Shown here one piece after another: positions 18,323 through 20,960 of a stretch of 34,102 nucleotides of DNA. The DNA lies in the NCBI GenBank assembly GCA_900313725.1, contig OMSK01000030.1, positions 1 to 34,102 of the forward strand, in the 5' to 3' direction. The translations under genes were made by a program, and so were the position numbers. Numbering within the stretch: the stretch's first letter is position 1; every line of letters begins with the position of its first letter. The DNA is from an uncultured Bacillota bacterium (GTDB lineage: Bacteria > Bacillota_I > Bacilli_A > RF39 > UBA660). A model generated the notes under the pieces. It was not told the DNA's origin and did no database searches. It saw nothing but the letters and a program-made list of their open reading frames with translations.

Positions 18323-19195
18323 TTAGTGTAAATCATTATTATCTAATTGTTTATTATTATCTTCATTAATTTGTTCATAATTTTGTTTTAAATTTTCTTT
18401 TGATTCCATAATTTTAGAAATTATTTTTTTTATAATTATTAAGACAATACCTATAGTTATTTCTAATATTCCTATTATTAATATTTGATCTAATTTTATT
18501 GTTATATTAAATTCAAAATTTTGTCTATTCATTATTTGTTTTACTATATAATTTAATATAAAATATAATCCACATATTAAAATTCCAACTGATATTAAAG
18601 AACTTCCAAATGTTGTCATCCATTTATATAGTGAACCATTTATTATCATTAGCAATATTACACATATTATTATTAATATTATCAATACAATTTGAATATT
18701 ATTTGATGTTAATTTTGCATATATTTTAATTGCTTCTGTAGGTGTATTACCTATTTCCGATTTCATATTTTTAAAACCATCATTAATGGTATTATAAATA
18801 CTATCATGTGTTTCTTGTGATTTCATTTCTGATTCTGTTAGTGGTGCACTTAATAAATTATTAACTGTTTCTTTATTATTTACACAATAATTTACTATAT
18901 TTTGTACCGTTTTTTCACTTACTTTATGATTATTATCAGATAAATAAGTCATATAATCATTTACAACATTATCTATTATTGTTTTAGCTTCTTGATTATT
19001 TATTATTTTATCTATTTCTTTTTCATTATCAATATTATTTTCTATATATTCAGATATAATTTTTTCTTTAGCTACTCCACCAATGATTTGCTTTTTAACT
19101 ACATTTTTAAATATTATATTTAAAGAAAAAAATAATAGTAAAACAAATAATCCTGTACTAATTATAAATGATAAAAAAACTCTTATGTATTTCAT
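18323..19195 (-). CDS. Polytopic membrane protein of unknown function
   Basis: The 290-residue protein has one N-terminal membrane segment (about 5-29), a hydrophilic loop of about 140 residues rich in N, E and T (30-168), then three membrane segments (about 169-187, 196-217, 231-256), and a charged N/Q-rich cytoplasmic tail. The large loop is predicted extracytoplasmic and has one cysteine. I recognise no family. The ATG at 19195 is preferred over a GTG nine bases upstream because AGGTG, the ribosome-binding site, overlaps that GTG. It is directly downstream of noc with a terminator between. No functional link can be shown. Confidence 0.65.
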   Translation of the reverse strand: MKYIRVFLSFIISTGLFVLLLFFSLNIIFKNVVKKQIIGGVAKEKIISEYIENNIDNEKEIDKIINNQEAKTIIDNVVNDYMTYLSDNNHKVSEKTVQNIVNYCVNNKETVNNLLSAPLTESEMKSQETHDSIYNTINDGFKNMKSEIGNTPTEAIKIYAKLTSNNIQIVLIILIIICVILLMIINGSLYKWMTTFGSSLISVGILICGLYFILNYIVKQIMNRQNFEFNITIKLDQILIIGILEITIGIVLIIIKKIISKIMESKENLKQNYEQINEDNNKQLDNNDLH

Positions 19196-19227
19196 ATTTA
19201 TCACCTATTTAAGTATATCATAGTATT

Positions 19228-19257
19228 AAAAAAAAGTATATTTATTATACTTTTTTT
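19228..19257 (-). terminator. Intrinsic terminator after noc
   Basis: The GTATA/TATAC stem (19236-19240 with 19246-19250) is extended by flanking A8/T7 tracts, giving about 12 bp of stem and a T-run on either strand. Confidence 0.65.
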
Positions 19258-20869
19258 AATTTTTATCTATTTTAATTGTAAATTCATATGTTCCAGGTAA
19301 ATCTAATTCATCTGAATCAACTTTATAACCCATTCCCTCAATTTGTTTAATGCAATCTCTCATTGTATTAATTACAGTATTTAAATCTACTCTTTGTTGT
19401 TTATTATCAACTTCTGGCATTAAAGGAGTTAATTCTTGAGTTTCAGGTAATGGATAATTTGGTGTTGAAACAAATGGAGCTGGATTTACTTCTGGAATTG
19501 ATTGACTTGTTTCAAATGGATTAAATCCTCCTTGTGGTTGCTCTGGTGCTCCTCCAAATGGATTGAATGCTGGTGCCTCTTGTTGTACTGGTTCTGGTTG
19601 TGGTGCAGCTGGCGCTTCATTCATACTAAATGGATTAAATCCTCCTTGTGGTTGCTCTGGTGCACTAAATGGATTGAATGCTGGTGCCTCTTGTTGTACT
19701 GGTTCTGGTTGTGGTGCTGCAGGTGCTTCATTCATACTAAATGGATTAAATCCTCCTTGTGGTTGTTCTGGTGCTCCAAATGGATTGAATGCTGGTGCTT
19801 CTGGTTGTGCTGGTTCTGGTTGTGGTGCTGCTGGCACTTCATTCATACTAAATGGATTAAATCCTTGTGGTTGTTTTGGTGCTCCTCCAAATGGATTGAA
19901 TGCTGGTGCTTCTGGTTGTACTGGTTCTGGTTGTGGTGCTGCTGGTGCTTCATTCATACTAAATGGATTAAATCCTCCTTGTGGTTGTTCTGGTGCTCCA
20001 AATGGATTAAATGCTGGTTTTTCTGGTTGTACTGGTTCTTGAACACCAAATGGATTAAATGGTTCTTTTTCACCTACTCCATTATTTTGTACAGGTTGTA
20101 TATCTTGTGCATTATTTGCTATATTATCAATATTCATAAATCCAGGGTTTTGATTGTTATTTGAATTATCTATTATTGGTTCACTTGGTATATTAAAATT
20201 ATTATTTACTTCATTAAAATTATTATTCATATTATCACCTTTTTCTTCTTTTATTTCATTTTCGTTTGGATTCAATATACTATTAATTAATTGATCAGTT
20301 TTTCTAACTGTTAATCTTTCTTTAATTATTCTATTTAATATGTTTGGTTGTTCTTCTTTAGGCAATCTAAGTAATGATCTAGCATGTCTTTCAGATATTT
20401 GTTCTTCTAATAATGCTTCTTGAACTTCATCAGAAAGATTTAATAATCTTAACTTATTAGCTATAGTTGATTGAGTTTTTCCTAATTTAATTGCTAATTC
20501 TGATTGATTTAAATATCCCATATCAAGAATTTTTTTATAAGATAGTGCTTCTTCTATAGGTGTCATATCTTGTCTTTGAACATTTTCAGTTAATGCAACC
20601 TCAGCACTCTCTTTATCATCTATATCAGTTATAATTGCTGGTATAGTTTTTCTTCCAGCAATAACGCTTGCTTTATATCTTCTTTCTCCAGCTATTATTT
20701 CATATTTATCTGCAATTTTTCTAACAATTATTGGTTGAATAACACCATGTTTTTTTATTGATTCAGATAATTCTAAAATAGCTTTTTCATCGAATTTTAT
20801 TCTAGGTTGAAATCTATTTGGCAAGATATCATCGATATTAAGAATAAATACTTCTTTACGCATTCTCAT
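19256..20869 (-). CDS. noc: Noc-type ParB-family protein with a long FNPF tandem-repeat tail
   Basis: The 537-residue protein has a ParB N-terminal CTPase domain (about 5-105) with GERRYKAS (61-68) and ENVQRQD (95-101), and a helix-turn-helix domain (105-165). The four residues reported to separate Noc from ParB binding specificity are Q133, K139, N144 and R161, all Noc-type, in GKTQSTIANKLRLLNL and ISERHAR. Noc binds its NBS sites, spreads on DNA and prevents division over the nucleoid. Residues about 270-450 are 37-residue repeats rich in P, Q, F and A with eleven FNPF motifs. A 44-residue end (GYKVDSDELDLPGTYEFTIKI) may be a dimerisation domain. The usual N-terminal amphipathic membrane helix of Bacillus Noc is missing. 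The ATG at 20869 is preferred over a codon nine residues upstream because GAGGGG lies ten bases before it. It has rsmG upstream; no soj or spo0J follows. Confidence 0.9.
   Translation of the reverse strand: MRMRKEVFILNIDDILPNRFQPRIKFDEKAILELSESIKKHGVIQPIIVRKIADKYEIIAGERRYKASVIAGRKTIPAIITDIDDKESAEVALTENVQRQDMTPIEEALSYKKILDMGYLNQSELAIKLGKTQSTIANKLRLLNLSDEVQEALLEEQISERHARSLLRLPKEEQPNILNRIIKERLTVRKTDQLINSILNPNENEIKEEKGDNMNNNFNEVNNNFNIPSEPIIDNSNNNQNPGFMNIDNIANNAQDIQPVQNNGVGEKEPFNPFGVQEPVQPEKPAFNPFGAPEQPQGGFNPFSMNEAPAAPQPEPVQPEAPAFNPFGGAPKQPQGFNPFSMNEVPAAPQPEPAQPEAPAFNPFGAPEQPQGGFNPFSMNEAPAAPQPEPVQQEAPAFNPFSAPEQPQGGFNPFSMNEAPAAPQPEPVQQEAPAFNPFGGAPEQPQGGFNPFETSQSIPEVNPAPFVSTPNYPLPETQELTPLMPEVDNKQQRVDLNTVINTMRDCIKQIEGMGYKVDSDELDLPGTYEFTIKIDKN
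19514..20056 (-). repeat. 111-bp tandem repeats within noc
   Basis: The 9-mer AAATGGATT recurs on the plus strand at 19514, 19556, 19628, 19667, 19739, 19778, 19850, 19889, 19961, 20000 and 20048. Two interleaved series each have an exact period of 111 bp (37 codons). About four full units and partial ends are present, with in-frame three-base shifts only. The tract is clearly richer in G+C than the rest of the window. Confidence 0.95.
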
Positions 20870-20900
20870 AACTATCTTTCCCCTCTTTATTATCATATTA

Positions 20901-20929: not shown

Positions 20930-20930
20930 T

Positions 20931-20944
20931 ATTTCCCGGGAAAT
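20931..20944. promoter_or_regulatory. Noc-binding site (NBS)
   Basis: The perfect 14-bp palindrome ATTTCCCGGGAAAT equals the published Noc-binding consensus of Bacillus. It lies between rsmG and noc, directly upstream of the predicted noc -35 box. A GC-rich palindrome of this length is very unlikely by chance in such AT-rich DNA. Confidence 0.9.
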
Positions 20945-20960
20945 AATTTTAAAAATTTAA

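Follow-up and report, generated by a model that had tools for sequence, protein, structure and literature searches.

A Noc orthologue from an uncultured RF39 bacterium carries an FNPF repeat array in a long linker predicted to be disordered

A stretch of 34,102 nucleotides from an uncultured Bacillota bacterium of the order RF39 and family UBA660 (contig OMSK01000030.1, assembly GCA_900313725.1), hereafter called the window, contains a noc gene (19256..20869, minus strand) that encodes a nucleoid occlusion protein of 537 amino acids (plus stop) with a long internal linker. Proteins of this kind (Noc) link the replication-origin end of the chromosome to the control of cell division. By descent and by its DNA-specificity residues the protein is a Noc orthologue, in which a predicted disordered insertion of about 280 residues separates the helix-turn-helix (HTH) domain from the C-terminal dimerisation domain (CTD) and bears eleven FNPF motifs. 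A linker was present in every member of a family set of 104 distinct Noc proteins, comprising about one protein per genus (~100 genera).

The noc open reading frame is intact, and the minus-strand frame spans 19256-20896. Translation probably begins with MRMRKEVF at 20869, where relatives align and just upstream of which lies a GGGG/GGAG-type stretch resembling a ribosome-binding site; an alternative in-frame ATG further upstream would give 546 aa. It was found that the first part of the protein matches positions 2-209 of the NCBIfam model TIGR04285 (282 bits, E 3.3e-84) and contains matches to the Pfam families ParB_N and HTH_ParB, and that the C-terminal end alone matches positions 208-255 of the same model (E 3e-4). 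The two flanks thus correspond to neighbouring stretches of the Noc model, and the insertion is placed exactly between the HTH and the CTD. The score is below the curated cut-off of TIGR04285 (282 versus 315 bits), and none of 60 order or family genomes passed it, presumably because the linker splits the match; Nocs of the family are consequently likely to be annotated merely as ParB-like.

An AlphaFold2 model of the protein was built from 43 family sequences, and its best fold match was Geobacillus Noc (7nfu), the closest solved structure. Residues 1-204 (20258..20869, minus strand), which comprise the CTPase part (ParB_N, with the motifs GERRYKA and ENVQRQDMTP, so that both the GERR and the EN.QR motif of a cytidine triphosphate (CTP)-binding domain are present) and the HTH, were ordered, with a predicted local distance difference test score (pLDDT) mostly of 80-98. 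Residues 488-537 (19259..19408, minus strand), a helix and two strands with a pLDDT of 86-97, correspond in sequence and model to a CTD of the Noc type, the dimerisation itself being predicted. Between them, residues 205-487 (19409..20257, minus strand) had block pLDDT values of 43-61 except for the last few residues and were unfolded save for a short helix at 248-253 (PGFMNIDNI), where a low pLDDT is a prediction of disorder and not a measurement. The first-pass annotation of this DNA had named the gene noc, which the TIGR04285 match, the CTD match and the specificity residues described below bear out, and had asked for a disorder prediction of the repeat region, which falls within the unfolded part. 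It had also called the repeats a tail, but they belong to an internal linker that is followed by a folded CTD. Its remark that 537 aa is far above the usual length of Noc agrees with the Noc frames of other families of the class, which are mostly 253-306 aa over their whole length.

The FNPF array consists of eleven motifs in a 37-residue (111-bp) unit at 19514..20059 (minus strand), within which the program TRF detected a repeat at 19514-20039 with a period of 111 bp, 4.7 copies and 90% matches. The motifs start at residues 271, 287, 300, 324, 337, 361, 374, 398, 411, 435 and 449, and they form two series of five and one outlier, at residue 271. All eleven motifs and the two series were located as first described, with the frame intact; the spacing within a series, which had been given as exactly 111 bp throughout, includes one step of 114 bp (a 3-bp in-frame indel), and the array, which had been placed at 19514-20056, has the start given but extends three bases further, as the last motif ends at 20059. 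The array is less AT-rich than its surroundings, as had been noted, with a guanine-plus-cytosine content of 44% compared to 26% in the DNA-binding part, about 25% in the rest of the gene and 24% in the window. Its 184 residues include 22 F and 2 basic versus 19 acidic residues, and the amphipathic moment of the FNPF unit is small (0.05-0.22). One FNPF copy, KEPFNPFG (20045..20068, minus strand), is common to all five members of the genus and out of repeat register, and is the probable founder copy of the array.

Arrays were found in all five genomes of the genus, all in frame, with units of 111 bp in the window, 144 bp in G001, 114 bp in G002, 189 bp in G003 and 84 bp in G004. Four of these arrays share NPF as the core of their units, with F, M or Q in front of it (FNPF, MNPF, QNPF). 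The basal member of the genus, G004, keeps a KFF motif (described below) and has two NPF, whereas KFF is missing from the other four, which have 6-11 NPF, although copy numbers from short reads are uncertain and can be lower bounds, the noc gene of G003 being split over two contigs inside its array. FNPF occurs as a single copy in some neighbouring genera (L025, L028, L030, L032, L045) and was therefore amplified in the genus of the window, so that the array represents amplification of a pre-existing motif, either repeated or with strong turnover. A recent expansion, as first suggested from the near-identity of the copies, fits with the unit and the copy number differing between species of the genus.

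Matches to the window Noc were obtained in 190 of 193 family genomes, a number that includes matches to ParB paralogues. In a maximum-likelihood tree the 104 family Nocs fell on one side of a branch with support of 97/98, in a run whose bootstrap had not fully settled and in which some outgroup branches were long. The part of the protein that follows the HTH region, CTD included, measured 116-546 residues in the 104 proteins (median 291), a few of which are clipped at contig ends. Within the linkers there are recurrent motifs, the order of which is usually kept: F[ND]IPxxPI, PGFMDIdkIxxxAxDI, [GN][KR]FFN[MFL]F, xNMDF and an F-N-P/F motif. In the window protein the first of these is FNIPSEPII (20171..20197, minus strand) and the second is NPGFMNIDNIANNAQDI (20099..20149, minus strand), which contains the only predicted helix of the linker; a further segment, YPLPETQELTPLMP (19415..19456, minus strand), is conserved in the genus and lies directly ahead of the CTD.

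The motif counts were judged against 200 composition shuffles, which ignore kinship and so address non-randomness and not independent gains. The [GN][KR]FF motif was present in 57 of the 104 linkers (shuffle maximum 4), the PGFMD-type motif in 42 (maximum 3) and F[ND][IM]P in 30 (maximum 8). FNPF was present in 10 proteins (shuffle mean 0.6, maximum 5), an excess at the protein level that stands without the arrays; the total of 27 FNPF occurrences (shuffle mean 0.6, maximum 5) is inflated by them. Tandem arrays occur in 15 of the 104 linkers, and their units are unrelated, are all multiples of 3 bp and in many cases lack NPF.

Array-bearing linkers of the family include those of L040, L059, L060, L081, L089 and L143, with unrelated units that are all in frame; the array of L089 has a 62-residue unit in 4.6 copies, and that of L040 a 16-residue unit in 11 copies. 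Outside the family, two Nocs of family f17 of the class (G233/L129 and G244/L133) are exceptions to the usual short frames: a long low-complexity extension follows their CTD rather than preceding it, and a disordered region seems to have been gained there separately.

The preference of Noc for its binding sites (Noc-binding sites, NBS) is set by Q173 and R201 together with a lysine at 179 or 184, either of which suffices (Jalal and co-workers, PMC7383237). The recognition helix region of the window protein, GKTQSTIANKLRLL (20441..20482, minus strand), contains Q173 and K179, position 184 being N, and R201 lies downstream in ISERHAR; the specificity residues are thus Q, K, N and R, as in Noc. 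Q173 and R201 are kept in the family rows that were inspected, with the exception of G004; rows missed by a regular expression were read by eye, and some segments end before position 201. The Noc of G004 (L005) has the ParB-like pair R173 and G201, the only Noc seen with that pair. The G004 genome (85% complete) also has no exact NBS, unlike the other four of the genus, and specificity may have switched naturally there.

A perfect NBS, TATTTCCCGGGAAATA (20930..20945), identical to the published consensus (PMC7383237), lies just upstream of noc, between noc and rsmG, a position that suggests autoregulation or the loading of Noc; in many relatives noc is preceded by half-sites resembling TATTTCCCAAAATATAGT. 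The genome of the window, G000, has three exact NBS, one of them upstream of noc (control, 0). Across 98 family genomes, exact matches to ATTTCCNNGGAAAT numbered mostly 1-6, with 22 in one genome and none in eight, compared to 0-1 for reversed-pattern controls. From these comparisons, the parts of a CTP-dependent clamp, the specificity residues and the sites themselves are all those of Noc.

In the contigs inspected, NBS lie within ~26 kb of noc. The single 1.04-Mb contig of G097 has four NBS, all at 56.8-77.3 kb, with noc at 81.3 kb, and in G001 an NBS is located at 45.1 kb, parS at 50.9-51.9 kb and noc at 67.8 kb. Many NBS spread over the origin-proximal chromosome were not found in the family. 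In B. subtilis ~70 NBS are distributed across most of the chromosome (PMC4331003), and 41 loci are bound by S. aureus Noc (PMC5540599), although these published numbers include degenerate sites and are not like for like with exact-match counts. Degenerate NBS were sought genome-wide, and matches with two mismatches were overall no commoner than those of the reversed-pattern control, a comparison in which degenerate sites could be missed. Outgroup genomes likewise have just 0-10 exact NBS, but in several of them the sites are spread out.

It was also found that NBS and parS are interleaved in many members of the family. The pattern of a parS followed by an NBS within ~75 bases occurs in 43 of 146 family genomes (39 of 120 genera), and the reversed control gave 0. 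In G026 (C1:89140-90101) at least 13 NBS alternate with parS-like sites in a unit of ~79 bp, in G017 (C6:755-1374) there is a 62-bp parS-NBS unit, and in G000 (C91:2328-3183) NBS and parS are one base apart. By sequence reading alone, the genes around the arrays in G000, G001 and G097 were identified as gyrA, dnaX and a gene for a tadA-like deaminase. These interleaved arrays (L154-L168) are candidate composite Noc/ParB centromeres near the origin, a side result that may matter more than the FNPF array. No report of interleaved NBS and parS sites, and nothing relevant on disordered linkers in Noc, was found in the open-access literature searched, subscription papers lying outside the search.

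The N-terminus of the window protein differs from that of B. subtilis Noc, the N-terminal membrane helix of which is needed for function (PMC4331003) and in which K2, F5, R7, F8 and F9 have been tested for membrane binding (PMC4331003, PMC8429893). Such a helix had been predicted in every Noc homologue considered in earlier work (PMC4331003). The window Noc is without an N-terminal amphipathic membrane helix, as it starts about 19 residues before QPR and has no FF segment, and the family Nocs lack the hydrophobic N-terminus of outgroup Nocs. KFF-type linker motifs (GKFFNMFN; SLFNLFSKQ in L029; NIFNIFDQ in L088) resemble both outgroup N-termini (MFNLFTRD, VFNIFSRDD, MNIFSSSKEK, MGLFDFLG) and the N-terminal membrane-binding segment of B. 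subtilis Noc. As a hypothesis only, the KFF motif could represent relocation of the membrane anchor from the N-terminus into the linker. Relocation as the sole explanation of the missing N-terminus is weakened, as the Nocs of families f9, f13 and f19 lack the helix without having a linker.

For the FNPF linker, the reading that we favour, with somewhat less than even confidence, is that it serves as a multivalent docking arm that attaches the origin region to a partner. Noc clamps would load at the few NBS near the origin and slide onto flanking DNA, displaying many copies of the arm, and the repeated NPF motifs would bind the origin region avidly but reversibly to another component of the cell, such as a membrane-bound protein or one involved in division. 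The docking arm would in this way substitute for the membrane helix at the N-terminus of B. subtilis Noc, a protein for which no division-protein target was found (PMC4331003).

Several points weigh against a docking arm. The tree shows only one swap from KFF to an NPF array, which leaves the correlation with a single instance, and NPF may be shared among the units through common descent and not selection. The Nocs of f9, f13 and f19 (L126, L128, L130-L132, L134-L138) are short, with neither an N-terminal hydrophobic segment nor a linker, and losing the helix therefore does not necessarily call for compensation. Furthermore, direct membrane binding by FNPF is unlikely, because the amphipathic moment is small and 2 basic residues face 19 acidic ones, and FNPF was set aside as a direct membrane anchor. 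Other FNPF-repeat proteins, considered as co-assembling partners, were likewise set aside, as no FNPF-encoding DNA clusters outside noc were found in G000, G001 and G002; single-copy motifs elsewhere were not followed.

Self-association, which the first-pass annotation had suggested alongside a docking platform, and a neutral spacer are the main competing readings. It is conceivable, although rather unlikely, that the F residues placed regularly on a P/Q/A chain act as cohesive stickers that bind Noc clamps to each other and condense the origin, as in FG-repeat proteins. The regular spacing of F (13 and 24 residues), the 22 F with few charges in a 184-residue array predicted to be disordered, and the very small number of loading sites, given which cohesion could favour the assembly of a large complex, are all consistent with this idea. 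However, the repeated element is NPF (as FNPF, MNPF or QNPF) rather than F alone, which is a better fit to docking, the array is net acidic, and most family linkers have single motifs, only 15 of the 104 bearing arrays.

We consider it unlikely that the linker is a mere spacer of tolerated length, with repeats arising by slippage in low-complexity DNA and staying in frame since the CTD is needed. Such an origin would account for the variation in length from 116 to 546 residues and for the 15 arrays built from unrelated units that are all multiples of 3, many without NPF, but the conserved motifs far above the shuffles, with KFF in most members, and the recurrence of NPF, both in four arrays of different construction and singly in neighbouring genera, argue otherwise.

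In ParB-type clamps, according to the clamp model, the segment between the HTH and the CTD closes the DNA compartment. An insertion exactly at this place might widen the compartment, so that a clamp could hold two duplexes or pass obstacles, with the repeats tuning its length; this is improbable, as a disordered strand of 280 residues would make a loose ring, the length is not conserved, and the conserved motifs are left unexplained. An assembly artefact is hardly credible: the draft genome is 69% complete in 105 contigs, the repeats are near-identical and the G003 gene breaks inside its array, but the frame is intact across the whole gene, the contigs SVAG01000001 (297 kb) and JAGBES010000023 (111 kb) span their arrays, and the relatives, which the first-pass annotation had expected to lack the repeats if these were artefactual, carry arrays too, so that all five genus genomes have one.

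Combining the docking arm with the interleaved sites, it is possible, if doubtful, that the family Noc is no longer a protein dispersed over the chromosome but a second centromere protein, which would load from parS-interleaved NBS beside gyrA, share the centromere of ParB and hold the origin to a cell structure via linker motifs instead of an N-terminal helix, the FNPF array being the amplified attachment of one lineage.

In comparison to known systems, the window protein is like the Nocs of B. subtilis and Geobacillus in its CTPase and HTH, Q173/K179/R201, the NBS consensus, the CTD and the rsmG neighbour, whereas B. subtilis Noc has an N-terminal helix and ~70 NBS and the window Noc has no helix and a disordered linker of 280 residues, with exact NBS in its family that are few and, where checked, near the origin. 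It shares the NBS core and origin-proximal binding with S. aureus Noc, which also limits replication initiation and for which no long linker was reported (PMC5540599). The fold, the CTP-clamp motifs and an origin-proximal cluster of sites are common to ParB/Spo0J, but the latter has R173/G201 and binds parS, whereas the window Noc has Q173/R201, and a separate ParB gene adjoins ParA in the genus genomes.

Repeated short aromatic motifs on disordered chains are found in the NPF motifs of endocytic proteins, which are ligands of EH domains, and in FG nucleoporins. These are eukaryotic, and their likeness to the FNPF array is an analogy with no sign of kinship.

The way in which Noc influences division is a matter of debate, the known attachment in B. 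subtilis being a short N-terminal helix, and the family offers natural variants with which the contributions of membrane attachment, of clamp sliding and of the distribution of sites could be told apart; the FNPF repeat is directly usable as bait for the missing partner of Noc. One neighbour was considered as such a partner and set aside because its position next to noc is not conserved in the genus relatives; this is a predicted membrane protein of 293 aa, without a family assignment, encoded at 18323-19204, downstream of noc.
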